Shown here: piece by piece, positions 7,140 to 35,151 of the stretch
Numbering within the stretch: the first letter of the stretch is position 1
Layout of the letters: each line of letters opens with the position of its first letter
Assembly: GCA_003137075.1 (NCBI GenBank)
Contig: PLES01000179.1
Coordinates: 1-35,151 of the forward strand
Length of the DNA: 35,151 bases
Direction of reading: 5' to 3'
DNA from: Solirubrobacterales bacterium
GTDB taxonomy: Bacteria > Actinomycetota > Thermoleophilia > Solirubrobacterales > Solirubrobacteraceae
Made by a program: the position numbers and the translations under genes
Notes under the pieces: generated by a model
Seen by the model: the letters and a program-made list of their open reading frames with translations, nothing else
The model's database searches: none
What the model was told of the DNA's origin: nothing

Positions 7140-7168
7140 TTGCATACAGTTTGCCAAGCCGTCCACAG
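7140..7168 (-). promoter_or_regulatory. Shared 29-bp regulatory element, copy 1 (cupin-SDR-SDR-GntR operon)
   Basis: On the plus strand the near-palindrome TTGCATACAG (7140-7149) is followed 19 bp later by a second CAG (ending 7168, in CCACAG). On the gene strand this reads CTGTGG-N13-CTGTATGCAA, followed by TAATGGGAG and the cupin ATG. The same two elements at the same distance occur before five other operons in the window. The TGTATRCA core is the kind of site bound by FCD-type GntR regulators, and one is encoded by the last gene of this operon. Confidence 0.75.
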
Positions 7169-7174
7169 GACGGC
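7158..7174 (-). terminator. Small hairpin after the ketopantoate reductase gene
   Basis: GCCGTCC at 7158-7164 pairs perfectly with GGACGGC at 7168-7174 around a 3-nt loop. It lies 18 bp past the stop of the upstream gene. Only a weak T-rich stretch follows on the gene strand, and it overlaps the distal part of the shared regulatory element, so its role as terminator is uncertain. Confidence 0.4.
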
Positions 7175-7192
7175 AGAATGTTTTGGGTCGTC

Positions 7193-8113
7193 TCAGCGGG
7201 TCCAGCTGTGCTCGAGCCCTAAGATCAGCTCGACGATCGCGGCGTTCAGCGGAGCTGGCACTCCCAGCTGCGTAGCCTGGCTGACGATCCCGCCGTTGAG
7301 CGTCTGGATCTCGGTGCCACGCCGGGCGCTGACGTCCTGGAGCATGCTGGGACGGTGGTTGAAGTTGGTCTTGCCGGCGGTGTCGATCAGCACTGCCGGG
7401 TCGTCCTCGAGCGTGATGCCAAGCGCGTTCGCGACTGCGCGTCCTTCCTCGATCAAGGCGCCGGCCAATCGCCGCGAGGGTGCGTGTTCGCAGAGCTGGC
7501 CATGGGTGAGACCGGTCAGTGCGCAGAGCGGGTTGGTGGAGCAGTTGAACAGCAACTTGGTCCACTGCGCACCACGCGCGTCGGCCATCGCGCTGGTCTG
7601 CATGCCACAGCTGTTAAGCAGCACCGCGAGCCCTGTGATCTCCTCCGTCGTGGCCGGCTTTGGCTCGAACGGACCGATCCAGGTCGGCCCGGGAGCGTGC
7701 AGGTGGATCACGCCGGGCTCGAGTAGTTGTACGGCCGGCAGCGTGATCCCGCGCATCACGCGCGGCACATGCTCGGCGATGATCTCCTCGTTGCCGATTC
7801 CGTTCTGGACGCTGCAGACGACGCCGTCCGCGAACAGCTGGGCCGTCGCCTTGATCGCCGGCTCCGTGACGGTTCCCTTGGTGGCGAGGATCCCGATCGA
7901 GCACGGTGGGATTGCGGCGGCGTCGGTTCGTGCCTGCACGCGTCCGACAAGCTCAACTGACCCGGTTATGCGCAGACCGTTCTGGTTGATCGTCGCGACC
8001 TGATCCTCGGAGGTGTCGTAGGCCCAGACCTCGACCTCAGGCAGTTGCGCAAGGTGGGCGGCGTAGAGACCGCCGATGGCGCCGCAGCCGACGATGCAGA
8101 TCCGCGTGGGCAC
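7193..8113 (-). CDS. Ketopantoate reductase-like (2-dehydropantoate 2-reductase family, ApbA/PanE)
   Basis: 306 residues from a GTG at 8113 (VPTRICIVGCGAIGG). An earlier in-frame start would run deep into the preceding gene and encode non-homologous residues. The Rossmann motif GCGAIGG is at about 9-15, the ILATKG strand follows, and the C-terminal domain has QWTKLLFNCSTNPLCALTG with the conserved Lys and Asn and HRPSMLQDVSARRGTEIQTLNGG, both diagnostic of the family. In biosynthesis the enzyme reduces ketopantoate with NADPH. In catabolic clusters homologues reduce other 2-oxo or beta-hydroxy acids, which fits the setting better since no other pantothenate gene is present. The gene starts 7 bp after the stop of the HbpS-like gene, so the two form one transcript. 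Confidence 0.9.
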   Translation of the reverse strand: MPTRICIVGCGAIGGLYAAHLAQLPEVEVWAYDTSEDQVATINQNGLRITGSVELVGRVQARTDAAAIPPCSIGILATKGTVTEPAIKATAQLFADGVVCSVQNGIGNEEIIAEHVPRVMRGITLPAVQLLEPGVIHLHAPGPTWIGPFEPKPATTEEITGLAVLLNSCGMQTSAMADARGAQWTKLLFNCSTNPLCALTGLTHGQLCEHAPSRRLAGALIEEGRAVANALGITLEDDPAVLIDTAGKTNFNHRPSMLQDVSARRGTEIQTLNGGIVSQATQLGVPAPLNAAIVELILGLEHSWTR

Positions 8114-8120
8114 GAGCGGC

Positions 8121-9116
8121 TCAGTCCGCCGGCAATACAGCGGCGGCGAGCCGGCCGCAGACTGACGGCGGCGGCCCGGCGATGCCGAGACCGGCAACGA
8201 CGATGCCGTCTTCAAGGATCGGCAGACCGCCGGGCGAAGACAGGATCGGATATGGCAGCGCCGCCGCCAAGCGCTCCAGCTGACCGTCCTCCGGGTACAG
8301 CTCGCCCAGCTTCTCACTCGCCACCCCGAAGGTCGCGGCGGTCGCGGCGACGGCCTCGGCCACGACCGGCGAGGCCGCAACGGCGCCGTCCATCCGGTCG
8401 AGCTGGATCGGGTCGCCGCGACGGTCGACGATCGCAAGCGAGACCAGCAGTCCCTGCTCTGTGGCGGCAGCGATCACGCGGCCTGCGAGCGCGAGCGCCC
8501 AGTGGTGCTCATCCTGGTCCTGCGCCGCCGGTGCCGGTGCCATCCCGAGCCCCGGACCGGGGTTCTCTGGGAACGAGCCGTAGGCGTTGATCCAGCGCTC
8601 GAGGTCGTCACCGTGCTGCCCCACGTACGGCCGGCCGAGCGCGTAGTGGACGAGCAGATCCTCCCCGTTCGACGGTTTCCCGTCGGCGATCAGCTTCTCA
8701 GGATCTGAGCCCGGATAGCCGACGAACGGCCCGATGCCGGCCCCCGATGCCGCGATGCCGGCGATCACCGGGCGACTGGGATCGCCGTGCTCATGGATCA
8801 GCATGCCGCCAGCGCCGGGGAAGATCGCCTCGGGCGAGCAGACCGTGAAACCGCTGACCATCGGCGCCGGGATCATCCGCATGCGTCCGAGGTGCTCGAC
8901 GCTCGGAATCTGCTGGGTCGCCGCGATCCAGGCCTTGGAGCGCGCCCGGGTCATGCCGCCGGCGCCGCCGTGATCCATGCGCGAGCCCGAGACCAGCGCC
9001 CCGGTTCCGCCGATCACGACGATTGAGCCGCGCATGCCGATCTGCTCGGCCTTGTCGATTGCACGTGCGATCAGCGCGCGAGCGTCGCTGAGCGGTAGGT
9101 CAGTGGTGCGACTCAT
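8121..9116 (-). CDS. Tandem HbpS/GlcG-like (DUF336, haem-degrading family) protein
   Basis: About 331 residues from the ATG at 9116 (MSRTTDLPLSDA); an ATG nine bases earlier at 9125 is possible. The protein contains two copies of the HbpS/GlcG domain. The first (about 5-160) has LIARAIDKAEQIGMRGSIVVIG, SRSKAWIAATQ-type sequence and AIFPGAGGMLIH. The second (about 205-330) has LALAGRVIAAATEQGLLVSLAIVDRRGD, ASPVVAEAVAATAATFG and ILSSPGGLPILEDGIVVAGLGIAG. Single-domain members form octamers that bind haem or small organic compounds, and they often occur in catabolic operons. A two-domain version is unusual. Catalytic function is not known. It is cotranscribed with the ketopantoate reductase-like gene and divergent from the methyltransferase. 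Confidence 0.85.
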   Translation of the reverse strand: MSRTTDLPLSDARALIARAIDKAEQIGMRGSIVVIGGTGALVSGSRMDHGGAGGMTRARSKAWIAATQQIPSVEHLGRMRMIPAPMVSGFTVCSPEAIFPGAGGMLIHEHGDPSRPVIAGIAASGAGIGPFVGYPGSDPEKLIADGKPSNGEDLLVHYALGRPYVGQHGDDLERWINAYGSFPENPGPGLGMAPAPAAQDQDEHHWALALAGRVIAAATEQGLLVSLAIVDRRGDPIQLDRMDGAVAASPVVAEAVAATAATFGVASEKLGELYPEDGQLERLAAALPYPILSSPGGLPILEDGIVVAGLGIAGPPPSVCGRLAAAVLPAD

Positions 9117-9126
9117 GCCGAGCAAA

Positions 9127-9155
9127 CTCTACACAGGTTGGCAAAATGTATGCAA
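9127..9155 (+). promoter_or_regulatory. Shared 29-bp regulatory element, copy 2 (methyltransferase / HbpS-like divergent promoter)
   Basis: CTCTAC at 9127-9132 and ATGTATGCAA at 9146-9155 have the 19-bp offset seen in the other copies. Between the elements TTGGCAAA is shared with copy 1. It lies 10 bp before the methyltransferase ATG and 10 bp from the ATG at 9116 of the divergent gene, so it could control both. Confidence 0.65.
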
Positions 9156-9165
9156 GGATGCAGGC

Positions 9166-9945
9166 ATGAGCGGAAGCGAACATTGGGGGCAGCGGCCCCG
9201 CGACTGGGCGGAACTCGCCGAACCATCAAACCACGTCCTGTTCACGACGGTGCTGGCTGCGCTCGCGCTGGCGCCGGGCGCGAAGCTGCTCGACATCGGC
9301 TGCGGTTCGGGCTACGCGCTGGCGCTCGCCGCCGAGCAGGGAGCAAGCGTCACCGGGCTCGACCTGACCCCGGAGCTGCTGGCGATCGCAGCCGAGCGCG
9401 TGCCGAACGCGACGCTTGTGGAAGACGGCATGGATCGTCTGCCATTCGTGGTTGGGCGCTTTGACGCGGCGGTCGGCTTCAACGCGTTCCAGTTCGCCGA
9501 CGACCCGGCAGCCGCCGTACGCGAAGCCGCCCGCGTCGTGCGAATCGGCGGGCAGGTCGCGGCAACGACCTTTGCCGAACCCGAGCGCAACGAGTCAACC
9601 GCGCTGCACCTGGCGCTCGAACCGCTGCGCGGCAGCGCTCCGCAGAGCGGCCACCATCTGCCCTACGGCCTCTCGGCGCCGGGCGGGCTCGAGCGGCTGC
9701 TCAGCGACGCCGACCTCGAGGTGACGCAGTCAGGCGAGGTCCCGGTCGTCTGGGCGCATCCCAGTGCGGAACTCGCGGTCCGGGCCGTGCTCGCCTCCGG
9801 CGGCGGCGCGATGGCGATCGCGGCGGCCGGCGAGGCCGCCGCTGCGCAGGCGCTGCTCGACGGTGTGAAGCCGTTCACGCTGGCCGACGGTCGCGTGGAG
9901 ATGCACAACGTCTTCCGCTTCGCGATCGGCGCCAAGCGCCACTGA
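9166..9945 (+). CDS. Class I SAM-dependent methyltransferase
   Basis: 259 residues from the ATG at 9166 (MSGSEHWGQRPRDWAELAEP). The longer open frame begins inside the divergent gene and is not needed. Motif I is KLLDIGCGSGYALALAAEQGASVTGLDLTPELL (about 43-75), motif post-I is the D of GLDLT, and motif II is RFDAAVGFNAFQFADDP, with ARVVRIGGQVAATTF following. This is the UbiE/COQ5-like Methyltransf_11 fold. The substrate is unknown. A methyltransferase in a degradative cluster might modify a toxic intermediate or be unrelated in function, but it shares the regulatory element with the catabolic operons. Its 3' end is followed by a strong bidirectional hairpin. Confidence 0.88.
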   Translation: MSGSEHWGQRPRDWAELAEPSNHVLFTTVLAALALAPGAKLLDIGCGSGYALALAAEQGASVTGLDLTPELLAIAAERVPNATLVEDGMDRLPFVVGRFDAAVGFNAFQFADDPAAAVREAARVVRIGGQVAATTFAEPERNESTALHLALEPLRGSAPQSGHHLPYGLSAPGGLERLLSDADLEVTQSGEVPVVWAHPSAELAVRAVLASGGGAMAIAAAGEAAAAQALLDGVKPFTLADGRVEMHNVFRFAIGAKRH

Positions 9946-9954
9946 CGTAAAGCG

Positions 9955-10000
9955 TTCGTCCGACCTGGACTTCGTTATTTAGAAGTTCAGGTCGGACGAA
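9955..10000. terminator. Strong bidirectional hairpin between convergent genes
   Basis: A 19-bp stem (TTCGTCCGACCTGGACTTC at 9955-9973 with its complement at 9982-10000, one G-T type mismatch) surrounds the AT-rich loop GTTATTTA. It lies 9 bp after the methyltransferase stop and 11 bp after the stop of the convergent FMN reductase-like gene. It is therefore well placed to terminate both transcripts, though neither side has a long T-run. Confidence 0.8.
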
Positions 10001-10011
10001 ACCGCGTCGCC

Positions 10012-10941
10012 CTAACTCCCAGGCGTGATCCGGCGCTCGTATTGCGCGTAGACCGAAGCCCGCCGCTCGATCTCCGCGGCCAGCGCACCTTGGATCTGTC
10101 CGGTCTCCTGCACCTCGACAAAGTGCTCACGCTTTTCGGTCAGTCCGATCACCGACTTCTCCAGGCCGGCCGGATCGTCGAACGCGACCACAGCCTGACC
10201 GTCGGCAACCGAAAGCCGCCCGGCGGCCCCACAGGTGACGCACTCCACAGCGGTGCCGTGGATCTCAACCGCAGAGAGGTGGCACAGCGGGCAGAGCCCA
10301 GGCTCGCCGCGGTACTCGACCTGCTCGAACGGCCGGCCGAGCTGCGAGCCGACGCTGCGCCCGACGCGGGCGGCGTTGACCAGGGCGGCGGCGTCGAGCA
10401 CAACGGCCCTGGGCATGCCGGCGCCGCCGACCAGCAGCTGATCGGCGACGGCGATGTTCGAGGAGAACATCATCTGGTGCATCAGCGGCAGCGCCAGCCC
10501 GCGCCACTGCGTGGTGAGGGCGCCGCCGACGGCGATCAGCCCCGCGACCCGCGGGCGAAAGACGCGCTCGTCATACGGGAACGCGACCGGTGGGGTCTCG
10601 CCGGCCTGGAGCATCGATCGATAGTTCTCGGCAAAGACCACATCGGCGGCCGGGCCGGAGAGGCGGTCGGCCACGAGCTTCAGCTTGCCGGGGATCGTGC
10701 GCGAATAGATCGGCGCGGAGACGATCAGCCCGTCGCTCTCCATTACCTGGTCCCAGAGCCAAGCGCCGTCATCCTCGGTCGCGACCGCGACCGGCCCCAC
10801 AGGCCGGGTGGGCAGGGTGAGATCGTCGAGTCGCAGCAGGCTGACCTGGGCGCCCTCATCCTCGGCGGCGTGCAGCGCGACCTTGAGCAGGATCTCGGCG
10901 CTGCCGTCGGGGTTGCCGGCGCTCAAGCCCAGCACTCTCAC
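10012..10941 (-). CDS. NADPH-dependent FMN reductase-like flavoprotein with C-terminal Cys4 zinc-ribbon-like insert
   Basis: 309 residues. The first 200 form a flavodoxin-like NADPH:FMN reductase domain: VLGLSAGNPDGSAEILLKVALHAAEDEGAQV, APIYSRTIPGKLKLVADRL and the FRPRVAGLIAVGGALTTQW strand. Residues around 215-240 contain CPLCHLSAVEIHGTAVECVTCGAAGRL, a CxxC-CxxC pair resembling a rubredoxin or zinc-ribbon knuckle, followed by a helical tail. The start overlaps the stop of the flavin monooxygenase gene by 4 bp (ATGA). The likely role is to supply reduced flavin, or to reduce a quinone or other pathway compound. The metal-binding appendix is odd for the family. Confidence 0.85.
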   Translation of the reverse strand: MRVLGLSAGNPDGSAEILLKVALHAAEDEGAQVSLLRLDDLTLPTRPVGPVAVATEDDGAWLWDQVMESDGLIVSAPIYSRTIPGKLKLVADRLSGPAADVVFAENYRSMLQAGETPPVAFPYDERVFRPRVAGLIAVGGALTTQWRGLALPLMHQMMFSSNIAVADQLLVGGAGMPRAVVLDAAALVNAARVGRSVGSQLGRPFEQVEYRGEPGLCPLCHLSAVEIHGTAVECVTCGAAGRLSVADGQAVVAFDDPAGLEKSVIGLTEKREHFVEVQETGQIQGALAAEIERRASVYAQYERRITPGS

Positions 10942-12182: not shown

Positions 12183-12192
12183 CTCGGCGCTC

Positions 12193-13212
12193 CTAGACGA
12201 AGACGATGTCGAGTTCAGCGGCCGCAGCCGCCAACTTGTCGCGATCAACGGCGCGCGCTTGCTCCGGGAAGATCCGCTGCTCTGCGATCTGGCCGGCAAC
12301 TTCGTGGAAACGCTCGACGCCCGCCGGGCCGTACATGCTCGCGAAGCGCGTCAGCTGTGCCTCCATCGCGTAGCTGTGCTCGCTGCCCGCGGGGATGCTG
12401 AAAAAGTCGCCTCGGGTCAGCAGGTGCTCCTCACCGTTGACGGTCACGCGCAGGCGCCCGTCCAGGCAGTAGATCGCCTCGTAGGTCTTTTCGTGTGCGT
12501 GCAGCGGGATCGCGGGCGAGCGCGGGCCTTCGGTGACGGTCATGCCGAGCTGGCCGTCGCTTTCGGCACCGGTCATCAACTGGAAGGCGATCTGGCCGAA
12601 GAGCTCGTGGCGCGGCCCCTCACCGGCTCGCAGGAAGTAGGCGCTGGCGCTCCCGGGCAGCCGGTCATCGGGGCCGGTGCCGGCATCCGGGTAGGGCTCC
12701 TGCGGGAAGTACTTCATCGCGAACCTGGCCTCGGCCTCACCGAACTTGGCGAACGGCGGCGGGCTGTTGTCAACCTGGGGATAGGCCGGCCCCGCGTAAG
12801 GGGTGCCGGTCAGGTCGAAGAAACGGTCCCAGCCGGCCGGGGCGATCGGCCCCATGAACTGGCTGTAATGCCCGTGGAACTGGTAGGCGTGCAGCACGCC
12901 GGCGGGAACGCTGGCGACGTCACCGGGGTGCAGGATGCGGCTGACGCCGTCCGCCCAGACCTGAACCTGGCCACGGACACAGAAGAAGTAGTCATGCTCG
13001 TTGTCGTGGCGGTGCATCGGGATCGGGCGCCCGGCGGGGCCGACGGCAGTCATCGCCGACATCGCACCGGCGGTCTCCTCGGTACCGGCCAGCGCACGGC
13101 CGACCTGGCCTAGAAGCAGGTGTGCGCGACCGTCGCCGTCGGCGAGGTAATACGGCACCGGCTCACCCGGAAGCTCCCGGAAGGGCAGCGTTGTATCGAC
13201 TCGAAATGACAT
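12193..13212 (-). CDS. Bicupin protein, quercetin 2,3-dioxygenase-like
   Basis: 339 residues with two cupin barrels, the arrangement of quercetin 2,3-dioxygenases. Barrel 1 has HRHDNEHDYFFCVRG and GDVASVPAGVLHAY (about 67-110). Barrel 2 has HAHEKTYEAIYCLDGRL and GDFFSIPAGSEHSYAM (about 240-295). In the pattern HxH-x4-E-x6-G, barrel 2 keeps the Glu, whereas barrel 1 has Asp at that position (with a Glu two residues earlier). If metal-dependent, the enzyme might cleave an activated C-C bond of a flavonol or related enediol ketone. It is the first gene of an operon with a flavin monooxygenase and a flavin reductase. The shared regulatory element is 28 bp before the ATG. Confidence 0.85.
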   Translation of the reverse strand: MSFRVDTTLPFRELPGEPVPYYLADGDGRAHLLLGQVGRALAGTEETAGAMSAMTAVGPAGRPIPMHRHDNEHDYFFCVRGQVQVWADGVSRILHPGDVASVPAGVLHAYQFHGHYSQFMGPIAPAGWDRFFDLTGTPYAGPAYPQVDNSPPPFAKFGEAEARFAMKYFPQEPYPDAGTGPDDRLPGSASAYFLRAGEGPRHELFGQIAFQLMTGAESDGQLGMTVTEGPRSPAIPLHAHEKTYEAIYCLDGRLRVTVNGEEHLLTRGDFFSIPAGSEHSYAMEAQLTRFASMYGPAGVERFHEVAGQIAEQRIFPEQARAVDRDKLAAAAAELDIVFV

Positions 13213-13240
13213 GACCCTCTCCTAGGCCTCGTTTCCAGTA

Positions 13241-13269
13241 TTGTATACAGACTGATCAAATGCGTGCAG
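13241..13269 (-). promoter_or_regulatory. Shared 29-bp regulatory element, copy 3 (bicupin operon / divergent SDR)
   Basis: TTGTATACAG at 13241-13250 contains the perfect palindrome TGTATACA. The second CAG ends at 13269, 19 bp further. It is located 28 bp from the bicupin ATG and 4 bp from the divergent SDR ATG, so a bound regulator would cover the SDR promoter or start as well. Confidence 0.75.
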
Positions 13270-13273
13270 AACT

Positions 13274-13963
13274 GTGATGAAGCGTGTAGCCGCGGTGACC
13301 GGCGGCGCGGGAGCGATCGGCGGGGCTATAGCGCAGCACCTGCGCGACAGCGGCCACACCGTCGAGGTCCTGGACCTCAACGCAGAGTCTCCCGTCAACC
13401 TCGCCCAGCAGGGCGAGGTTCAAGGCGCCGCGGCGAGCCTGCTCGAGCGCCATGGGCGGATCGACGTGCTGGTCCATGCCGCCGCAGCCTTCGACCAGGC
13501 GAACCTCGCCGAGCTCGACCTGGCCAGCTGGCGCCACGTCCAGGCGGTCAACGTCGAGGCGGCGCTCTGGCTCGCGCAAGCGTTCGCCCCGGGCATGGCT
13601 CAGAGCCGTTTTGGGCGCATCGTCTTCGTCGTCTCGGACACCGTCTGGGACCCGCCCGCCGAAGAACTGCTGCCCTACGTGGCGAGCAAGGCGGCGCTGA
13701 TCGGAGTCGCCCGTTCACTTGCCAGGGCGCTCGGCAAGGATGGAATCACCGTCAACTGCGTCGCGCCCGGACTGACTCGCACACCGGCCGCGCAGGCCGG
13801 GATGCCGCAGGCTTCCTTTGAAGCCGTGCGCGCGCGAATGGCGATCGACCGCGACCTGCTGCCGTCCGACATCGCCGCGGCCGTCGGCTTCCTGAGCTCG
13901 GACGCGGCCGGGGCGCTTACGGGGCAGACCCTGTGTGCGGACGGCGGGCTGGTCCTGCGTTGA
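13274..13963 (+). CDS. SDR family NAD(P)-dependent oxidoreductase (short)
   Basis: 229 residues, somewhat shorter than usual because the segment after the first Rossmann unit is missing: VTGGAGAIGGAIAQHLRDSG leads straight to EVLDLNAESPVNLAQQGEVQG, then HAAAAFDQ. The catalytic residues are intact in FVVSDTVWDPPAEELLPYVASKAA (Ser, Tyr, Lys) and the C-terminus is LTGQTLCADGGLVLR. The compact form resembles dihydrodiol-dehydrogenase-like or cyclohexadienediol-type SDRs. It diverges from the bicupin operon over a shared regulatory element. Its 3' end overlaps the convergent BBE gene by 47 bp. Confidence 0.87.
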   Translation: MMKRVAAVTGGAGAIGGAIAQHLRDSGHTVEVLDLNAESPVNLAQQGEVQGAAASLLERHGRIDVLVHAAAAFDQANLAELDLASWRHVQAVNVEAALWLAQAFAPGMAQSRFGRIVFVVSDTVWDPPAEELLPYVASKAALIGVARSLARALGKDGITVNCVAPGLTRTPAAQAGMPQASFEAVRARMAIDRDLLPSDIAAAVGFLSSDAAGALTGQTLCADGGLVLR

Positions 13964-16473: not shown

Positions 16474-16486
16474 CCCGTGGCGAGTA

Positions 16487-16515
16487 TTGCATACAGAAGT
16501 TCATTACGTGTACAG
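16487..16515 (-). promoter_or_regulatory. Shared 29-bp regulatory element, copy 4 (divergent VOC operons)
   Basis: TTGCATACAG (16487-16496) is followed by TACAG ending at 16515, 19 bp further on. It fills most of the 49-bp gap between two divergent VOC genes, 13 bp from one start and 7 bp from the other GTG. Both operons are therefore probably controlled together. TACAGT at 16511-16516 could also be a -10 box for the rightward gene, giving an almost leaderless message. Confidence 0.75.
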
Positions 16516-16522
16516 TTTGGGC

Positions 16523-17053
16523 GTGCCTTCGTTGCCGCCAATTCACCACGTCGGTTACGTCGTTGAGGACCTTCGCAGCGGCGTTGAGCGGTTTGCCAAG
16601 GACTTTGGCGCCGGACCCTTCTTCGGGATGGAGCACATGGTCTTTGACGAGGTCACCTACCGCGGCGTGGCGGCCGTCTACGACCACTCCTCGGCGTTCG
16701 GGTGCTGGGGTCCGATCCTGGTTGAAGTGACCCAGGTCCACGACGCCCAGCCGGCCGCTTTCCGCGAGACGCTGGTCGCTCCTGGCACGGGGCTCGGCCA
16801 TATCGGCGTGCTGACGCCATCACTTTCGCAAGAGACGGAGCGCCTTGAGGCGCTGGGGCTGACCGCGTTTCACACCGGCAGGACCGGACCGGCGTCGGCC
16901 GTCTGGTTTGAGGGCGGGCCGCTCTTCGGACACCCGATCGAGGTCTTGCAGGAACGCGATGAGATCCTCGGCTTCTACGCGATGGTGCGCGCAGCGGCGA
17001 TCGGCTGGGATGGCAGCGAGCCGCTGCGGATCATGACCGGCCCGCCTGAATGA
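16523..17053 (+). CDS. VOC/glyoxalase-fold metalloprotein, second type
   Basis: 176 residues from the GTG at 16523 (VPSLPPIHHVGYVVEDLRSG); a TTG further upstream lies within the regulatory element. The protein looks like the Glyoxalase_4 group. Candidate metal ligands are His in IHHVGYVV, Glu in PILVEVTQ, His in GLGHIGVLT and Glu in HPIEVLQER. It differs clearly from the 135-residue VOC protein on the other side of the promoter. It starts a three-gene operon with a flavoprotein and dienelactone hydrolase, overlapping the next gene by 4 bp (ATGA). Epimerase or lyase chemistry is possible; the substrate is unknown. Confidence 0.87.
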   Translation: MPSLPPIHHVGYVVEDLRSGVERFAKDFGAGPFFGMEHMVFDEVTYRGVAAVYDHSSAFGCWGPILVEVTQVHDAQPAAFRETLVAPGTGLGHIGVLTPSLSQETERLEALGLTAFHTGRTGPASAVWFEGGPLFGHPIEVLQERDEILGFYAMVRAAAIGWDGSEPLRIMTGPPE

Positions 17054-18501
17054 GCTTGCCGGAGGAAGTTGACGTACTGGTCGTGGGCTTCGGCGCTGCC
17101 GGCGCCGCCGCGGCGATCACCGCGCACGACGCGGGCGCAACCGTCGCCGTGCTTGAGAAGGCATCGCTGGGCGGCGGCAACTGCCTCCACTCCGGCGGCT
17201 TCCTCTTTGAGGTCGACGGCCCCGGCGCGATCGACCACCTCGACGCGCTCTGCTTCGGTAAGACCGACCGCTCGGTGTTGAGCGCCTACGCCGACGGGCT
17301 GCCCGAGGTCTCGCCGTTTCTGAACTCGCTCGGCGGCGCCACCGCGGCGGTCGAGATCGGCGCCTTCGGCGGCATGCTGCCGTCCTGGCCGAACTTTCCC
17401 GGAGCCGGTCACGCCCGCTACCGGCAGTTCACGCCGGCCGACAAGCGTGAGCGTCCGGGCATCGGGCTCTGGCGGCTGCTGCAGCACGCGGTCTGCGACC
17501 GCGACATCCCGGTGGCGTTTGACGCGCCCGCGCTGGAACTGAAGTTCGATCAGCAGCGGCGGGTCGTTGGTGTGGTCGTTGAATGCGGTGGCGCTGCCCG
17601 CGAGGTCGGGGTCCGCGGCGGCGTGGTACTGGCCAGCGGCGGCTTCGAGGCCGACCAGGAACTCTGCGACACCTACCTGCCGCTGTCGGTGGTCTCCGTC
17701 GGCCATCAGGCGAACACCGGCGACACGCTGGCGCTGACCGCGCAGGCGGGCGCCGCGCTCTGGCACATGAGCGCGTTCTTCGGCTGGCTCTCATTCGTTC
17801 ACCCCGAGTACCCGGCCGCGTTCACGCTCGACGTGCACGCGCCGAGCTTCATCTACCTCGACGGCGACGGGCGCCGGTTCGCCGACGAGACCGGCTGGGA
17901 GGTCCACGACAAGGTGCGCTCGGTGACCGCCTACATGCCGCGGCGCGAGAACCGGCCGCAGATGCCCGGCTGGATCGTGTTCGATGAGGCCGCGCGTAAG
18001 GCCGGACCGCTGCACGGGATCGTCGGCAGCCCCAACGGCTACGAGTGGAGCGCTGACAACTCGGCTGAGGTGCAGGCCGGCTGGATCCACCGCGCTGAGA
18101 ACTCGGCCGAACTCGCGGCGGCCACCGGGCTCGCTCCGGCGATCCTGCGGCGCACGCTCGCTGACTACGCCGCCTCGGTCTCAGAGAGGCGCGACGAGCT
18201 CTTTGGCCGCGCACCGGCAACACTCGCGCCGCTGGTGGCGCCGCTCTACGCGATTCAGATGTGGCCGGGCGTCGCAACGGCGTCGGGCGGCCCGCGGCGC
18301 GACGCCTTGGCGCGGGTCCTGCGCCCCGGCGGCGAGCCGGTTCCAGGGCTGTTCGCGGCCGGCGCCGCCGGATCTATCTGGGGCCATCTGACCGAACACG
18401 GCGGCGGCCTCACCGACGCGATCGTCTTTGGCCGGATCGCCGGGGAGCAGGCCGCGCATGCGGCGCGGCCGGCGCTGAGCACACAACAGGAGGCTGTATG
18501 A
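17050..18501 (+). CDS. FAD-binding dehydrogenase (fumarate reductase/3-ketosteroid-delta1-dehydrogenase-like)
   Basis: 483 residues of the FAD_binding_2 family. The N-terminal motif VDVLVVGFGAAGAAAAITAHDAG (about 6-28) is followed by LEKASLGGGNCLHSGGF. VVLASGGFEAD lies at about 193-203. The C-terminal GLFAAGAAGSIWGHLTEHGGGLTDAIVFGRIAGEQAA is diagnostic. Members reduce or introduce an alpha-beta double bond next to a carbonyl, as in fumarate reductase, urocanate reductase and KstD. There is no secretion signal and no flavocytochrome domain, so it is a cytoplasmic enzyme. It overlaps both neighbours by 4 bp and so is tightly coupled to the VOC and dienelactone hydrolase genes. In the pathway it might dehydrogenate a ring or reduce an enone; the direction is not known. 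Confidence 0.9.
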   Translation: MSLPEEVDVLVVGFGAAGAAAAITAHDAGATVAVLEKASLGGGNCLHSGGFLFEVDGPGAIDHLDALCFGKTDRSVLSAYADGLPEVSPFLNSLGGATAAVEIGAFGGMLPSWPNFPGAGHARYRQFTPADKRERPGIGLWRLLQHAVCDRDIPVAFDAPALELKFDQQRRVVGVVVECGGAAREVGVRGGVVLASGGFEADQELCDTYLPLSVVSVGHQANTGDTLALTAQAGAALWHMSAFFGWLSFVHPEYPAAFTLDVHAPSFIYLDGDGRRFADETGWEVHDKVRSVTAYMPRRENRPQMPGWIVFDEAARKAGPLHGIVGSPNGYEWSADNSAEVQAGWIHRAENSAELAAATGLAPAILRRTLADYAASVSERRDELFGRAPATLAPLVAPLYAIQMWPGVATASGGPRRDALARVLRPGGEPVPGLFAAGAAGSIWGHLTEHGGGLTDAIVFGRIAGEQAAHAARPALSTQQEAV

Positions 18502-19238
18502 ACCCCACCGTGATTGAAGTCCAGACGCCGCGCGGCACGATGCCCGTGCATCTGCACCAGCCGGAAGGCGATGGGCCGTTCCCGCTGGTGGTGCTGTACA
18601 TGGACGGTCCCGGGATCAGGCCGGCGCTGCACGGCCACGCCGAACGCCTGGCGCACGCCGGTTACGCGGTCGCGATGCCCGACCTCTACTACGCGTTCGA
18701 TCCGGCCGACAAGCCCGATGTCGACAAGCTCGCGGCCGGCGAGGGCGCGGAGTTCGGGCGCATGGGCGCGATCGTCGCGCGCGTCAACGACGCCGAGGTG
18801 CTGGCCGACACGCGCCTGATGCTCGAGGCGCTGCCCGGCGCGGACCAGCCGTGGGGCTGCGTCGGCTTCTGCATGGGCGGGCGGTTTGGGCTGCGGGCCG
18901 CCGAGGCTTTTGCGCAGGAGGTCGCCGTCGCTTCGCTGCTGCACCCCTCGCAGCTCGTCACCGACCGGGCCGACTCGCCGCACCTGGCGCTCGGTGCCGT
19001 CGATGCGTCGCTCTACCTCGGCTTCGGGGAGAACGACCACGTGACGCCGCTCTCGGTGATCCCGCCGCTGCGCGAGCAGCTGGAGGAACATGCAATCTCT
19101 TATCGGATCGAGGTCATCCCCGACGCCGATCACGGCTTCACGATGCCCGGCCTGCCGGCCTACAACGAGACCGCCGCCGAGCTGGCATGGACCGGAACGC
19201 TCGCGGCGCTCGCGGAAGCGCTGCCGGCGGGCGGTTGA
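18498..19238 (+). CDS. Dienelactone hydrolase family protein
   Basis: 246 residues from the ATG at 18498, preceded by AGGAGG at 18488-18493. The extended frame upstream lies inside the flavoprotein gene and is not coding. The alpha/beta hydrolase has the family nucleophile Cys125 in GFCMGGR, with Asp180 in GFGEND and His212 in DADHGF completing the Cys-Asp-His triad of dienelactone hydrolase. It would open a lactone such as an enol-lactone of the pathway, giving an oxo acid. Its presence supports a lactone intermediate, perhaps formed by the BBE oxidase or flavoprotein. It is the last gene of the VOC-flavoprotein-DLH operon. Confidence 0.92.
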   Translation: MNPTVIEVQTPRGTMPVHLHQPEGDGPFPLVVLYMDGPGIRPALHGHAERLAHAGYAVAMPDLYYAFDPADKPDVDKLAAGEGAEFGRMGAIVARVNDAEVLADTRLMLEALPGADQPWGCVGFCMGGRFGLRAAEAFAQEVAVASLLHPSQLVTDRADSPHLALGAVDASLYLGFGENDHVTPLSVIPPLREQLEEHAISYRIEVIPDADHGFTMPGLPAYNETAAELAWTGTLAALAEALPAGG

Positions 19239-19313
19239 GCCCCAGCAGCCCAGCGCAGGCTGCCCACGCGTGGTCGTTTACACCGCGCGTGGCGATTCGG
19301 CCACACGGAGCGG

Positions 19314-19420
19314 ACAACTCCTACCGCCAGTCGCGCTCGCCGGGATCGTTCGGGGTTGTGCCGCTGTAGGCCTACCAACTCCGAACCGCTCGCCTCACGC
19401 CGGCAAACGGTAGGAGTTGT
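19314..19420. repeat. Inverted repeat spanning a convergent intergenic region
   Basis: ACAACTCCTACCG at 19314-19326 has a perfect 13-bp inverted copy, CGGTAGGAGTTGT, at 19408-19420, with 81 bp between. GTAGGCCTAC, a perfect 10-bp palindrome, lies inside. The whole sits in the 230-bp gap between the dienelactone hydrolase stop and the convergent alcohol dehydrogenase stop. The gap holds no other gene. It may fold into a large structure at transcript ends or be the remains of a small mobile element. Confidence 0.6.
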
Positions 19421-19468
19421 GCGGGCCAGGACGGCGCTCGCGTTCGGCGCTGGTGGGCTTCTCGCGAG

Positions 19469-20575: not shown

Positions 20576-20661
20576 GCCGGCGCCTCCTCTCGCGTCTTGC
20601 TTCGCAGCGACTCTAAGCCGTTAGACGGCGGACTCCGCGCGATCCGTGGCCTGCGACGCGC

Positions 20662-22719: not shown

Positions 22720-22762
22720 GCGTTTCTGAGACTGATGGAAGTCGCGACTTTAAGCCCGCGAT

Positions 22763-22790
22763 GTGAGCCCGCCCAGCGGGGCGGGCTCAC
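22763..22790 (-). terminator. GC-rich hairpin between the binding-protein and permease genes
   Basis: GTGAGCCCGCCC at 22763-22774 pairs perfectly with GGGCGGGCTCAC at 22779-22790 around the loop AGCG. It lies 17 bp after the binding-protein stop and 43 bp before the permease ATG. Within transporter operons such stems usually stabilise the binding-protein message or partly terminate transcription, allowing excess binding protein. No T-run follows, so full termination is unlikely. Confidence 0.75.
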
Positions 22791-22807
22791 AGTCGCTTGC
22801 TCAGTGG

Positions 22808-24052: not shown

Positions 24053-24819
24053 AACAACCTCTCCTCACTTCGATTATTTGCTGTCTCTGAAAGTTCGTCT
24101 GCGGCTGCCTCGCCGAGGTAACTGGCGGTGACCAGCTTGCGATCGGCCTGAAGCTGTTCGGCCGGCCCCTCCAGCACGATCCGACCGTGAGTCAGTACGT
24201 AGGCGCGGTCTGCGATCTCAAGCGCGAACGCCACGTGCTGCTCGACGAAGAGCACCGCGGTGCCCAGTTCGGTGGCGACGCGGCGCAGGATCGGCAGCAG
24301 CCGTTCGACGATCACCGGGGCTAGCCCGAGGCTCATCTCGTCGACCAGCAGTACGCGCGGGCGGCTGATCAGCGCGCGGCCGACGGCCAGCATCTGCTGC
24401 TCACCGCCTGACAGCAGACCCGCTCGGCGGTCAAGGCATTTGTCGAGCTCAGGCAGCATCTCAAGCAGCTCCTGCTGGCCGACGCCGTCCTTGGAACGAG
24501 CCAAGCGCAGGTGCTCACGAACGGTCAGGCCGAAGAACAGCGCCCGGCCCTCCGGGACCAACGCCAGCCCCTCGCGCGCCAACAGGTGCGTTTGGCGCCC
24601 GACGATCGACTCGCCGTGCATCGTGATCGTGCCCGCCATCGGCTCGTGCAGACCGGCGATGGTCTCGAGCGTCGTCGTCTTGCCGGCACCGTTCGGTCCG
24701 AGCAACGCGACCACCTCACCCGGCGCCACATGCAGCGAGACGCCGCGCACGACCGGGCTTCCAAAGTAGCCGGCGTCAAGGCCGTCGACGCTGAGCGCCG
24801 TCGCGGTGGCCGTGGTCAC
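24049..24819 (-). CDS. livF: Branched-chain-type ABC transporter ATPase LivF
   Basis: 256 residues. Walker A is LGPNGAGKTTTLETIAG (about 39-55), the signature is LLSGGEQQMLAVGRALISRP (about 136-155) and Walker B is VLLVDEMSLGLAP, with the switch His in FVEQHVAFA. The short length and the MSLGLAP motif mark LivF rather than LivG. It is the energy-coupling subunit, partner of the ATPase encoded upstream and the fused permease downstream. It overlaps the LivG gene by 4 bp and the binding-protein gene by 4 bp. The name refers to the subfamily; it does not imply that leucine is the substrate. Confidence 0.92.
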   Translation of the reverse strand: MTTATATALSVDGLDAGYFGSPVVRGVSLHVAPGEVVALLGPNGAGKTTTLETIAGLHEPMAGTITMHGESIVGRQTHLLAREGLALVPEGRALFFGLTVREHLRLARSKDGVGQQELLEMLPELDKCLDRRAGLLSGGEQQMLAVGRALISRPRVLLVDEMSLGLAPVIVERLLPILRRVATELGTAVLFVEQHVAFALEIADRAYVLTHGRIVLEGPAEQLQADRKLVTASYLGEAAADELSETANNRSEERLL

Positions 24820-25622
24820 GATCCGCTCCCAGCTGCGGTTGTGGCGACCGGAGTTCCATGGCTGCCGAGGTAGGCCTCCAAGACTCGCGGGTCCTCGCGG
24901 ATCTCAGCGGGCGAACCCTGCGCGATCGCGTGACCAAAGTCGAGCACCATCAGGCGGTCACAGACGGCGAGCACGAGGCTCATGTCGTGGTCAACCAGGA
25001 AGACCGTGACGCCGTGCTCGTCAGGCAGGGAGCGCAGGCGCTGTCCGAGCGCGAGGCTCTCATCGGTGTCGAGCCCCGCGGCGGGCTCGTCCATCAGCAC
25101 CAGTCGCGGCTTCTGGGCGAGCGCCCGGCCGACGCCGACAAGCTTGCGCTGCCCGTGCGAGATCTCGCTCGGGTAACGGTCGACGACGCCACCGAGGTCA
25201 CAGACGTCGATCGCCCAGTCAACGTTCGTGCGGTCCGGGGCACGCGCGGGCAGGAAGAGATCGCGCAGCGCCAGCATCACGCCGGCGCGCTCACTCGCGA
25301 CCAGCAGGTTCTCATCGACGGTCAGGTCGTCGAACAGCTCGACCGACTGGAAGGTGCGGGCCAGTCCGAGCCGCGCGCGGCGGTGGGCGCGCATGTTGGT
25401 GATGTCCCTGCCATCGAAGTTGACGCTGCCGCCCGAAGGCGCCTGGTACCCGGTAAGCGCATCAATCATCGAGGTCTTGCCGGCGCCGTTTGGCCCGATC
25501 AGCCCGAAGACTTCGCCCTCGGCGACGCTCACGTCCACGTCGGCGACCGCGACAACGCCGCCATAGGCAACGCGCAGGCTACGGACGTCAAGCAGCGGCA
25601 TTTTGGGGGTTAAACCGGTCAT
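24816..25622 (-). CDS. livG: Branched-chain-type ABC transporter ATPase LivG
   Basis: 268 residues from the ATG at 25622, which has GAGAGGA just upstream; an internal ATG at 25601 is also possible, and longer starts would cross the promoter element. Walker A is IGPNGAGKTSMIDALTG, the signature is the modified ISHGQRKLVGVGRAL and Walker B is LVLMDEPAAGLD, followed by the switch FLVDHDMSLV. NMRAHRRARLGLARTFQ is typical of LivG. It leads the transporter operon LivG-LivF-binding protein-LivHM, with a variant of the shared regulatory element 39 bp before the start. That ties uptake to the catabolic regulon. Confidence 0.92.
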   Translation of the reverse strand: MTGLTPKMPLLDVRSLRVAYGGVVAVADVDVSVAEGEVFGLIGPNGAGKTSMIDALTGYQAPSGGSVNFDGRDITNMRAHRRARLGLARTFQSVELFDDLTVDENLLVASERAGVMLALRDLFLPARAPDRTNVDWAIDVCDLGGVVDRYPSEISHGQRKLVGVGRALAQKPRLVLMDEPAAGLDTDESLALGQRLRSLPDEHGVTVFLVDHDMSLVLAVCDRLMVLDFGHAIAQGSPAEIREDPRVLEAYLGSHGTPVATTAAGSGS

Positions 25623-25661
25623 GGATCCTCTCAAGGGCACTCCCTCAGCGCCCCGGCGAAA

Positions 25662-25690
25662 CTGTACACAGTTTTGCGTGATGCGTCCAG
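25662..25690 (-). promoter_or_regulatory. Shared 29-bp regulatory element, copy 5 (ABC transporter operon, variant)
   Basis: AACTGT and ACAGTT, a perfect pair of 6-bp arms with a 2-bp centre, lie at 25660-25673. A second CAG ends at 25690, 19 bp beyond the CAG at 25671. On the gene strand this is CTGGAC-N13-CTGTGTACAG. The core differs from the other copies (TGTACA instead of TATGCA) but geometry and orientation agree. It is 39 bp from the LivG start. Confidence 0.6.
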
Positions 25691-25764
25691 TCATTGACAT
25701 AGCACGCATGTTGCCGTTCGATTAGCGCATCTGCCGCGCGCTGCAAACGGGGCCACAGAGAGTC

Positions 25765-27204
25765 TTATCCAGCGACTCCAAAGACGGGAAAGGTTTCTGG
25801 TTGTGCAGCCGTTAAGCCGGGCCAGCCGGGATCTCCGTCATGCACGAACCGCGCCCAGGCCGTGCGGAGTTCGGTGGCCACCGCCGCGGCCCCCTTGGCC
25901 TGGCCGCCGAGACGCTGCCCCGGTCCGCCGTCGTCCCAGGTGCCGAAGAAGAGCGGCGTCTCAACTGTGTGGGTCGCGCCGAGTTCAGGACCAGCGCCGG
26001 GATGGTCGACCCGATAGCGGTAGACGCGGCTGCGTCCCGCTACGGCTTCGGTGCGCGCCGCCGCCCAGCCGGCCAGCGGCTCCGCGATCATCGCGTCGGT
26101 CGCGATCTCGACCAGCAGTGAGAGCGGGTCGGTCGCGGTGCCGCGCTGGCCGGCACGCTGCCGGTATTCGGCGAGCACGCCGTCCGCCTGGTCTGTGTGA
26201 AAGAGGTGGCCGACGATGCCGGGGATTCGCTCCCGCGGTGGCGGCGGCCGCCAGGGCGAGCGGAAGAAGAACGTTCCCTCCTGGCCGGTGTGACCGACCA
26301 GCACATCGACCTCGGGGCTCGCGCCCGGGTCAGCCAAAGGTGAAACCGGAAGTGTTGCGGGATCGAGCGTCGGCAGGGCGCCGCCGCGGCTTCCGCGCCA
26401 GGCGGGGTCGTCAAGCAGCGCCTCGTGGGTGGCAACCAGCTGATCCGCGTCGAGCGCGCGCATCCGTTCGGCATCGAAGCCGTCGCTCAGCCCGGCTGCT
26501 TCGGCGACGGCCTGTGCCCAGCTGGCCGCGACCTCGGGCGCCTGGGCGACATCACCGAACGGCGGCGAGGCGAGCAGCGCCCGTTGAAAGAGCCCCTTGG
26601 CCGCGGGCGCGACCAGCAGGTCCGCGGCACAGAGCGCCCCGGCCGACTGCCCCGCGAGCGTCACGCGCTTGGGATCGCCGCCGAAACCCGAAACGTTCTC
26701 GCGCACCCACTGCAGCGCGGCGACCTGGTCAAGCAGCCCCCAGTTGGCGCTCGGGTCGCCGGGCTGCTGCGCCAGATCCGGGTGACCGAGCCAGCCGAGC
26801 GTGCCGAGCCGGTAGTTGATCGTGACGACGACCAGATCCGCGGCCTGGGCGAGGCGAGCGCCGTCGTAGAGGCTCGCGGAGCCGTTGCCGATCGCGAAGC
26901 CGCCGCCGTGGATCCAGACCAGGACCGGCCTTGAGGCGGTCAGCGACGGTGTAAAGACGTTGAGGTTGAGGCACTGCTCGGCCGTCGGCGGCGTCTCGCC
27001 GTGCGTGAAGGTCGCCACCGCCCGCTCTGGCTGCGGAGCCGCGGGACCGCGGGACGTGGCGCCGCGGATTCCGGACCACCCAGGCTGGGTGGTAGGCGGC
27101 GTCCAGCGGGACGCCGCCGCGAAGGGGACGCCCAGGAACGCAAAGCCTTGCTCGGTGGTCCCCCCTTGCAGCAGACCACCGGACGTCTCGACGACGGGCA
27201 CCAA
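25765..27204 (-). CDS. Type B carboxylesterase
   Basis: 479 residues from the TTG at 27204, or 478 from the adjacent GTG at 27201, just after the stop of the preceding gene. The family marks are CLNLNVFTP (about 78-86), the oxyanion hole IHGGGFAIGNG (about 98-108), and the nucleophile Ser187 in LAGQSAGA. The acid and His are probably in the later segments, with GATHTVETPLFFGTWDD near residue 405 a good place for His and Glu. There is no signal peptide, so it acts in the cytoplasm. It would hydrolyse an ester such as an acylated phenolic or methyl ester. It follows a FAH-family gene with which it is cotranscribed. Confidence 0.92.
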   Translation of the reverse strand: MVPVVETSGGLLQGGTTEQGFAFLGVPFAAASRWTPPTTQPGWSGIRGATSRGPAAPQPERAVATFTHGETPPTAEQCLNLNVFTPSLTASRPVLVWIHGGGFAIGNGSASLYDGARLAQAADLVVVTINYRLGTLGWLGHPDLAQQPGDPSANWGLLDQVAALQWVRENVSGFGGDPKRVTLAGQSAGALCAADLLVAPAAKGLFQRALLASPPFGDVAQAPEVAASWAQAVAEAAGLSDGFDAERMRALDADQLVATHEALLDDPAWRGSRGGALPTLDPATLPVSPLADPGASPEVDVLVGHTGQEGTFFFRSPWRPPPPRERIPGIVGHLFHTDQADGVLAEYRQRAGQRGTATDPLSLLVEIATDAMIAEPLAGWAAARTEAVAGRSRVYRYRVDHPGAGPELGATHTVETPLFFGTWDDGGPGQRLGGQAKGAAAVATELRTAWARFVHDGDPGWPGLTAAQPETFPVFGVAG

Positions 27205-27205
27205 C

Positions 27206-28087
27206 TCAGCTCGCGGCTGCCGCCTCCGAGGTGATCGGAGCGAGATCCGGATGCCCCTCTGCCCAGGAGATGACGGGGTTGCGCAGGACTCCGACGCCCT
27301 GCACCTCGGCCTCGACGACGTCGCCGGGCTTCAGATAGAGCGAGGCCGCATCCTCGCTGAAGCCGGCCACACCGGCGACGGTGCCGGTGGAGATGATGTC
27401 GCCCGGGCTGAAGCCCATCGACGAATAGTGGCTGATGATCTCCGGCACGGTCACCGCCATGCGGCTGGTGTGCGAGACCTGGCGGCTCTCGCCGTTGACG
27501 CGCAGCTCCATCGAGAGGTTCTGCACGTCCGGGATCTCGTCCTTGGTGACGATCCAGGGTCCGATCGGCACGAAGGTATCGATGCTCTTGGACAGGCAGA
27601 AGACGCCCGACTTCATCTCCACGCGCTGGATGTCGCGGGCGGTGATGTCGTTGAAGACGATGTACCCGGCGATGTAATCCTCAGCCTCCTCGGGCGAGAA
27701 GAACTTGCCGGCCTTGCCGATCACGACGGCCAGCTCGAGCTCGTAGTCGAGCTCGTTGGTCATGCCCTCGGGGTAGATGATCGGGTCGTCCGGGCCGATG
27801 ATCGCGTCGACGTTCTGAAAGAAGACGATCCAGGGCAGCACCGGATGCGACCAGTTGACCCGCGTTGATTCCTCGTGGTGCTCACGGAAGTTGCCGGCGG
27901 TGTGGAAGAACTTCTTGGGGATGATCGGAGCGCGCAGGTGAACCTGGTCGAGCGGCGTTTCGCGCCCGGTTGGCTCGACCTCGCCCTGCAGCTCGAAGTA
28001 GCGCCGCATGTCCGGCACGTCGAGCTCGATCACGGTGCCGTCGACGACCTTGCCGACCCGCCCGTCGTCATACGTCACCAGCTTCAT
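27206..28087 (-). CDS. Fumarylacetoacetate hydrolase (FAH) family protein
   Basis: 293 residues. The N-terminal part (1-70) is the small domain (MKLVTYDDGRVGKVVDG). The catalytic FAH domain carries ELDYELELAVVIGKAG with the metal-binding glutamates, and YIVFNDITARDIQRVEMKSGVFCLSKSIDTFVPIGPWIVT with the Asp and conserved Lys. GDIISTGTVAGVAG follows. These proteins hydrolyse or decarboxylate beta-diketo acids and oxo-enoic acids formed by ring cleavage. It heads a two-gene transcript with the esterase and diverges from a second FAH gene. The two FAH proteins are not close paralogues, so they probably act on different intermediates. Confidence 0.9.
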   Translation of the reverse strand: MKLVTYDDGRVGKVVDGTVIELDVPDMRRYFELQGEVEPTGRETPLDQVHLRAPIIPKKFFHTAGNFREHHEESTRVNWSHPVLPWIVFFQNVDAIIGPDDPIIYPEGMTNELDYELELAVVIGKAGKFFSPEEAEDYIAGYIVFNDITARDIQRVEMKSGVFCLSKSIDTFVPIGPWIVTKDEIPDVQNLSMELRVNGESRQVSHTSRMAVTVPEIISHYSSMGFSPGDIISTGTVAGVAGFSEDAASLYLKPGDVVEAEVQGVGVLRNPVISWAEGHPDLAPITSEAAAAS

Positions 28088-28141
28088 ATCCTGCTCCCTT
28101 GCTGTATTCGTGGCCGCTGCGACCGGCGACCGCGTGCGTAA

Positions 28142-28170
28142 CTATAGACAGAAACTCGAACTGTATGCAA
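28142..28170 (+). promoter_or_regulatory. Shared 29-bp regulatory element, copy 6 (FAH gene at 28223)
   Basis: CTATAG at 28142-28147 and CTGTATGCAA at 28161-28170 reproduce the 19-bp register. TAG follows the palindrome, as TA does in copies 1, 3 and 4. It lies between two divergent FAH genes, 52 bp before the rightward start and 54 bp from the leftward start. Confidence 0.75.
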
Positions 28171-31644: not shown

Positions 31645-31656
31645 GTTGCATGCAAC
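31645..31656 (+). promoter_or_regulatory. Perfect palindrome before the one-carbon/O-demethylase operon
   Basis: GTTGCATGCAAC is a perfect 12-bp palindrome 80 bp before the MTHFR start. Its TTGCATGCAA resembles the TTGYATACAG core of the six shared elements but with GC in place of one half, and the second element at 19 bp is not conserved. CGTACAC follows at 31659. It may be the operator for the GntR regulator at 30824. Confidence 0.5.

Positions 31657-33284: not shown

Positions 33285-35151
<1,867 letters not shown>

Follow-up and report, generated by a model that had tools for sequence, protein, structure and literature searches.

The stretch of DNA analyzed here (the window) covers positions 1 to 35,151 of contig PLES01000179.1 from a Solirubrobacterales bacterium (assembly GCA_003137075.1; 35,151 nucleotides). 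It carries six copies of a 29-bp element close to gene starts. We consider it likely that this element is a double operator for GntR1, an FCD-type GntR regulator encoded in the same window, on which two dimers would overlap a promoter until a catabolite relieves the repression. The original prediction had proposed a candidate regulon of the local GntR protein that includes an importer. This proposal is supported by the exclusivity of the sites in the genome, their conservation between diverged flanks, and their co-occurrence with GntR1, all of which were computed, as were the sites and their spacing.

Six elements with a 19-bp period

All six elements are present in the window, and the invariant 19-bp offset between their two parts, proposed earlier together with their positions, was confirmed in 6/6. 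The elements are listed below.

7140..7168, minus strand: predicted double operator of the cupin-SDR-SDR-GntR1 operon (start 7124), reading CTGTGGACGG-N9-CTGTATGCAA on the gene strand
9127..9155, no strand assigned: predicted double operator in the 49-bp divergent region between the hbpS-like gene (9116, minus) and the methyltransferase gene MT (9166, plus)
13241..13269, no strand assigned: predicted double operator between the bicupin operon (13212, minus) and an SDR gene (about 13277, plus)
16487..16515, no strand assigned: predicted double operator in the 49-bp divergent region between VOC-SDR-BBE (16473, minus) and VOC2-FAD2 (about 16523, plus)
25662..25690, minus strand: predicted double operator of the Liv-type ABC importer operon (LivG start 25622)
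28142..28170, no strand assigned: predicted double operator between FAH1-carboxylesterase (28087, minus) and FAH2 (28223, plus)

Each element consists of two 10-bp near-palindromes. On the gene strand, an upstream box of 10 bases (approximately CTGTAnACAG) is followed by a linker of 9 bases and then by the downstream box. The downstream box is the better palindrome of the pair and is called the strong box; the upstream box is the weaker one. The strong box is CTGTATGCAA in three of the six elements and CTGTATACAA, ATGTATGCAA or CTGTGTACAG in the rest. At 9127 the strong box had been given as TTGYATACAG, which is wrong; it is TTGCATACAT. The genes named in the original prediction have their start codons 15, 10, 28, 13, 39, and 52 bp away in element order, which bears out the predicted range of 10-52 bp. 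As one option, the two parts had been described as half-sites two helical turns apart. At 10.5 bp per turn, two turns would take 21 bp; the observed 19 bp falls short of this by about 69 degrees, and neighboring dimers at this offset would not share a face of the DNA but be turned by about 69 degrees. Possible third boxes in the window scored weakly (2.9 at 25662 and 2.6 at 28142) and are not claimed.

A model built only from the six window sequences (R1) was run against the whole genome carrying the window (G000; 3,863,644 bases in 181 contigs). It gave six matches at E<=10, identical to the six known sites; since R1 was trained on these sites, the scan shows exclusivity only. Such a matrix scan had been suggested with the original prediction. 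It returned no further sites at this threshold, and the counter-outcome of matches inside genes did not occur.

The 19-bp period was examined in the loci of relatives by counting box pairs for all offsets between 10 and 60 bp. In 13 loci chosen by protein match alone, the untrained word TGTATACA gave 31 pairs at 19 bp, the top offset, and the other offsets had a mean of 1.62 pairs and a maximum of 10 (at 21 bp). The window box matrix gave 12 pairs at 19 bp in the same loci, and elsewhere a mean of 0.20 and a maximum of 1. Around GntR1 orthologues of at least 66% (six loci), there were seven pairs at 19 bp versus a mean of 0.10 elsewhere, and the second commonest offset was 38 bp, twice 19, with two pairs. 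Four stretches of 52-59% GntR1 relatives had three pairs at 19 bp versus 0.1 elsewhere. These counts by identity are not fully blind, since the loci L124 and L125 were fetched owing to an R1 match; the 13-locus test omits both. As a control, 68 loci with more distant FCD genes (1.08 Mb in total) were counted in the same way, and 19 bp was absent from their six commonest offsets; this set includes AT-rich genomes, which give higher counts per offset.

Some relatives carry three-box arrays with 19-bp steps and the strong box in the center (L028 2930-2977, L031 11666-11713, L125 7733-7780, and L124 4050-4097). In a distant relative with a GntR1 of about 49% (L033 4787-4817), two boxes stand at 21 bp rather than 19, a hint that subfamilies may differ in spacing.

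A fixed box order and an invariant spacing would also be expected of a pure promoter motif, the -35 and -10 of an alternative sigma factor with no operator. This reading is very improbable. Both boxes are near-palindromes resembling the FCD 10-mer, the genome holds only six sites, and arrays of three boxes as well as a secondary offset of 38 bp occur.

GntR1 and the conservation of its candidate targets

Two FCD-type GntR proteins are encoded in the window.

4524..5231, minus strand: GntR1, FCD (VanR-type) regulator and presumed repressor at the six sites (Pfam GntR 6e-17, FCD 2.2e-22); co-occurs with the arrays
30824..31582, plus strand: GntR2, second FCD GntR, judged not cognate from a search of the array-bearing genomes at E<=1e-20; 74% orthologue in G008

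GntR1 has both the winged-helix GntR domain and the FCD domain, which places it in the FCD (VanR-type) group of the GntR superfamily. Its predicted structure has a pLDDT (predicted local distance difference test) of 90, and Foldseek against the PDB matches McbR, PmiR, Atu1419, and TM0439. In the metal site of the FCD domain, H134, H176, and H198 are invariant. H130 stands at the D/N place in 13/13 GntR1-family rows; this place is D or N in 5/5 PDB relatives among the matches listed. The sequences suggest a four-histidine metal site for the GntR1 family. Since GntR1 is the fourth gene of an operon with an array, autoregulation is expected.

The independent test of co-occurrence is a scan of 61 genomes with R1, which was trained on the window only. 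At E<=1, matches were found only in G000, G008, G024, and G036. A GntR1 relative of at least 52% is present in five of the 60 other genomes (G001, G008, G017, G024, and G036), and all three matched genomes are among them; the chance of this is 10 in 34,220. A second model built from 17 sites (R2) was trained on genomes that it later matched, so that its co-occurrence is partly circular. R2 matched 10 of 146 family genomes at E<=1. Seven of these matches were below 0.4, all in genomes with GntR1-family proteins, and the other three (E 0.42-0.62) were in genomes without such a protein at E<=1e-60.

It is improbable that another regulator, such as GntR2 or one encoded elsewhere, owns the sites. 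GntR2 is nearby, is also of the FCD type, and has its 74% orthologue in the array-bearing G008. A lone perfect palindrome, TTGCATGCAA, lies at 31646-31655 upstream of the MTHFR gene and is possibly an operator of GntR2; the 200 bp examined at the start of the G017 orthologue of MTHFR contain no such palindrome. However, GntR2 has no match at E<=1e-20 in the array-bearing G410, G413, and G036, and its relatives in G017, G024, and G295 (49-52%) are on other contigs. GntR1 or a relative is encoded on an array-bearing contig in seven genomes (G000, G008, G017, G410, G413, G295, and G036). By these sequence comparisons, the occurrence of the array follows GntR1 rather than GntR2.

The arrays are also conserved in front of orthologous genes in relatives, the cupin and bicupin genes among them; loss of the sites in relatives, which the original prediction had named as a counter-outcome, was not observed. 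An array lies upstream of the cupin gene in 5/5 loci examined (G000, G008, G017, G410, and G295) and of the bicupin gene in 6/6 (G000, G024, G295, G413, and two in G410, one of them with a partial gene). An array flanks FAH1 (at least 79%) in 3/3 (G000, G295, and G413). For the hbpS-KPR operon, arrays are present in the window and at the G410 locus L209. Both boxes, their order, and the 9-bp length of the linker recur before orthologous genes. The positions of the boxes shift little while flanks and linkers vary, as with VOC at -42/-23 in both G000 and G024. The core of the regulon is cupin-SDR-SDR-GntR1, bicupin, and FAH1.

Other targets are less constant. LivG has boxes upstream in four of the eight loci examined: a clear array in G000, three boxes in G413, two weak boxes at 19 bp in G295, and a strong box with a half partner in G410 (C313). 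No array was found at the LivG genes of G024 C32, G017 C142, G017 C124, and G410 C331, which are 43-51% alike. The VOC gene has an array in G000 and in G024 (L124), where the VOC/VOC2 arrangement is the same. MT has one in G000, and the upstream DNA is off the contig in G413 and G024. FAH2 comes after the bicupin gene in G295 and G413. Among the five other R2 matches, one is before hbpS-KPR, one is about 240 bp before a PBP gene, and three (G410 C133, G410 C166, and G295 C3) are without a clear target.

Several results weigh against the double-operator reading. Arrays are absent at VOC in G295, G413, and two G410 loci and at MT in G410 and G295. At FAH2, the array of G000 is missing in G024 and G017, and in G008 the nearest one is about 257 bp away beside the cupin gene. 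MT, FAH2, and VOC are thus poorly conserved targets, and the regulon is uneven. A GntR1-family protein (E<=1e-60) is encoded in 21 family genomes, and in 14 of them R2 found nothing at E<=1; R2 also misses some of its own training sites, for example the cupin site of G295. G001 (67% GntR1) and G256 (59%) have no array even at E<=10, and in G001 a single strong box without a 19-bp partner precedes GntR1. The 16 loci of 40-50% GntR1 relatives show no distinct peak at 19 bp (three pairs at 19 and three at 18).

Divergent genes and promoter signals

The original prediction had the palindrome side of the element always facing the downstream gene. This holds for the genes that it named, but 4/6 sites are flanked on the far side by a second, divergent gene that was overlooked and that faces the weaker box. 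Three of these genes are as follows.

8121..9116, minus strand: HbpS-like gene (Pfam HbpS-like); ATG at 9116, 10 bp from the element; 50% to the G410 orthologue
13277..13963, plus strand: SDR gene (Pfam adh_short_C2, 7.5e-43); ATG at 13277, 7 bp from the element; this start was chosen over GTG 13274
16523..17053, plus strand: VOC2 (Pfam Glyoxalase_4, 3.2e-7); GTG at 16523, 7 bp from the element, chosen over TTG 16517 and 16532; its end overlaps the FAD2 start (17050)

The FAH1-carboxylesterase start (28087) is 54 bp from its element. VOC2 has relatives in G024 (65%), G413 (68%), and G295 (55%). Up to ten transcription units adjoin the six elements. Two of the divergent intergenic regions (9127 and 16487) are 49 bp each, with the 29-bp element near the middle. 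An open reading frame (ORF) without a Pfam match at 18255-19133 overlaps the 3' end of FAD2 by 247 bp on the opposite strand, and in G024, FAD2 is overlapped in a similar way by a stretch that is 49% alike.

Base statistics were taken from 17 of 20 listed sites. The three omitted, in which orientation or partner is unclear, are G410 LivG, the G410 C65 end, and the G024 site before x18255; the LivG sites of G295 and G413 and the G036 arrays are outside the list. The strong box centers on CTGTATRCAR, with G3 and C8 in 17/17 sites. The weak box has C8 in 17/17 and G3 in 12/17, so that its better half is the one next to the strong box. This arrangement would suit a second dimer beside the first.

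Promoter overlap of the elements is probable. A T at position 33, outside both palindromes, is found in 12/17 aligned sites (binomial p 9e-6 at 20% T, uncorrected and from related sites). Together with A29 it forms a -10 of the type AAnnnT at 28-33; elsewhere the hexamer is TACAAT or TACAGT and occupies 25-30. One of these -10-like hexamers is present at its fixed place on 11/17 strong sides. On the weak side, 6/7 sites with a close divergent gene have a TANNNT directed outward at 25-30, versus 1/10 others (Fisher p 0.0037); divergence was assigned with the sites known and the sites are related by descent, so both p-values exaggerate the strength of the evidence. In these six weak sides, 18 bp separate the TANNNT from a TTGCAT of the strong box. 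Of the ten other sites, the single one with the outward hexamer is the G008 cupin site, where FAH2 is divergent at a distance of about 257 bp.

Leaderless mRNA is common in actinobacteria. In four cases (VOC2 in G000 and G024, SDR in G000, and FAH1 in G413) the divergent gene begins 7 bp away from the element, and three of these starts have the TANNNT-N6-start geometry expected of leaderless mRNA. Leaderless starts are therefore likely for a subset of the genes. Use of the boxes themselves as -35 and -10 was considered and rejected: an offset of 19 bp is unsuitable, and hexamers offset inside the boxes fit.

The promoter signals have counter-evidence of their own. Six of the 17 strong sides are without a -10, including the G410 cupin gene, whose ATG is 6 bp from the box. 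Shine-Dalgarno-like stretches precede the cupin (GGGAG) and MT (AAGGA) genes of the window and speak against leaderless starts there. The far side was checked for five of the ten non-divergent sites; one had no ORF, and four (G017, G295, and two G410 sites) had ORFs without a Pfam match that may be unrecognized genes. Furthermore, the TA of TANNNT is already provided by the half-site TACAG. The missing -10s, the Shine-Dalgarno-like stretches, and the TACAG half-site would favor an operator only, with GntR1 dimers on the boxes, promoters elsewhere, and promoter-like hexamers as by-products of TACA-rich half-sites. We regard this as possible but rather unlikely, since T33 is outside both palindromes and the 49-bp regions at 9127 and 16487 are too short for other promoters unless these lie inside genes. 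The original prediction had left a choice between two operator sites and a promoter overlapped by an operator. Probably both apply: the boxes are palindromic and stand three in a row at 19 bp in some relatives, and -10-like hexamers are at their edges in 11/17.

Some GntR-family members are activators, and GntR1 might recruit RNA polymerase to promoters downstream of the elements. This can hardly be the case here. Between several elements and the start codon only 6-15 bp remain, too little for a promoter, and for this reason repression rather than activation is the simple reading.

For the double operator we infer the following mechanism. One GntR1 dimer would bind the strong palindrome (CTGTATGCAA-like), and a second would bind side by side with it, perhaps cooperatively, on the weaker palindrome 19 bp away; the third box of some related promoters would take a third dimer. 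For the main gene, the weaker box would supply a -35-like TNNACR and the edge of the strong box the -10. Where a gene lies on the other side, the strong box would supply TTGCAT as its -35 and the weaker box usually an outward TANNNT as its -10. Bound repressor would exclude RNA polymerase, in both directions at divergent genes. A catabolite of the pathway, which is probably a flavonoid/phenolic one, would release the repressor, and the importer, the enzymes, and the repressor itself would then be induced.

A stronger form of this mechanism is plausible but tentative. The element might be a bifacial switch of two back-to-back, largely leaderless promoters combined with a tandem operator, each palindrome serving as the -35 for one gene and the -10 for the other. 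The two genes flanking a 49-bp region would then be silenced by one two-dimer assembly, with polymerase spacing and dimer packing jointly fixing the 19-bp period.

Pathway and related systems

Among the genes of the window are the following.

6786..7124, minus strand: cupin, first gene of the GntR1 operon (Pfam Cupin_2); 72-79% in G008, G017, and G410, 70% in G295
12193..13212, minus strand: bicupin, quercetin 2,3-dioxygenase-like; closest solved structure 2h0v (phmmer E 6.2e-53)
34235-35149, strand not given, contig running on to 35677: LigM-type tetrahydrofolate-dependent O-demethylase; matches 5x1i (E 3.3e-149)

The 5x1i match is the LigM vanillate/3-O-methylgallate O-demethylase. This gene is the last of the window and stands beside MTHFR- and formyl-transferase-like genes; the LigM-MTHFR end, a one-carbon unit adjoining the regulon, is without an array. 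Other genes considered encode a carboxylesterase, FAH hydrolases, a flavin monooxygenase, and the Liv-type importer. The gene set suggests the breakdown of (methoxylated) flavonoid/phenolic compounds of plant type.

A group of FCD-GntR proteins without a named function thereby gains a defined predicted operator. If the operons are as drawn, the regulon comprises about 23 genes including the importer. It also indicates the likely class of substrates for an actinobacterial lineage about which little is known. How GntR dimers pack on DNA could be tested cleanly on the tandem palindromes with their strict 19-bp period. The two 49-bp divergent regions could show whether the symmetries of operator and promoter evolve jointly, as a single element.

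Atu1419 of Agrobacterium fabrum, one of the Foldseek matches of the GntR1 model, is a VanR-type FCD repressor of phenolic (hydroxycinnamate) catabolism that binds the 10-bp palindrome ATGTATACAT (PMC7797058). Changing the G3/C8 base pair abolished binding, and the palindromes overlap a -10 or sit between the -35 and -10. GntR1 shares with it the FCD type, the suggested link to phenolic catabolism, a 10-bp palindrome with G3/C8, and the probable promoter overlap. In Atu1419, however, a single tetramer can form a loop between sites that are 190 or 109 bp apart, whereas two or three boxes stand 19 bp apart here; judged on spacing alone, the GntR1 boxes fall outside the range of such a looping tetramer (109-190 bp). 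The zinc ligand Asn137 of Atu1419 (N-x3-H) also differs from the motif-equivalent H130, invariant in 13/13. Since methylene-THF (methylenetetrahydrofolate) is the proposed effector of Atu1419, folate intermediates may, speculatively, be one candidate inducer of the present regulon.

NanR of E. coli is an FCD GntR repressor of which several dimers bind cooperatively side by side on a repeat operator (PMC8012715). Its three adjacent dimers resemble the adjacent dimers proposed here. Its operator, however, consists of (GGTATA)3 repeats with dimers about half a turn apart instead of palindromes at 19 bp, and NanR binds them through a 32-residue N-terminal extension, whereas the first helix of GntR1 begins at residue 8. 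With another motif, another spacing, and no long N-terminal extension in GntR1, the elements are not repeat operators of the NanR type.

The strong box fits, by sequence, the operator consensus NyGTM-N0-1-KACNy of the GntR FCD group (PMC4494728), and the GT-N2-AC spacing is known in the FadR subfamily (PMC4494728). Suvorova et al. (2015; PMC4494728) described weaker half-boxes beside GntR palindromes and proposed that they recruit further subunits. The weaker extra box beside a main palindrome is a common feature, but those half-sites are 7-12 nt from the palindrome center, whereas a full second palindrome is centered at 19 bp here. An FCD regulon with tandem palindromes at 19 bp, or for this gene set, was not found in the open literature searched, which does not include most subscription papers or RegPrecise-type collections. 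In the accounts cited, the FCD 10-mer over promoters (Atu1419), adjacent dimers on a repeat (NanR), and weaker half-boxes near GntR palindromes are already known. Bidirectional prokaryotic promoters, in which one pseudo-symmetrical element drives divergent genes, have also been described (PMC12825309). The arrangement proposed here differs from them in that two back-to-back promoters would lie inside the double operator of a repressor.

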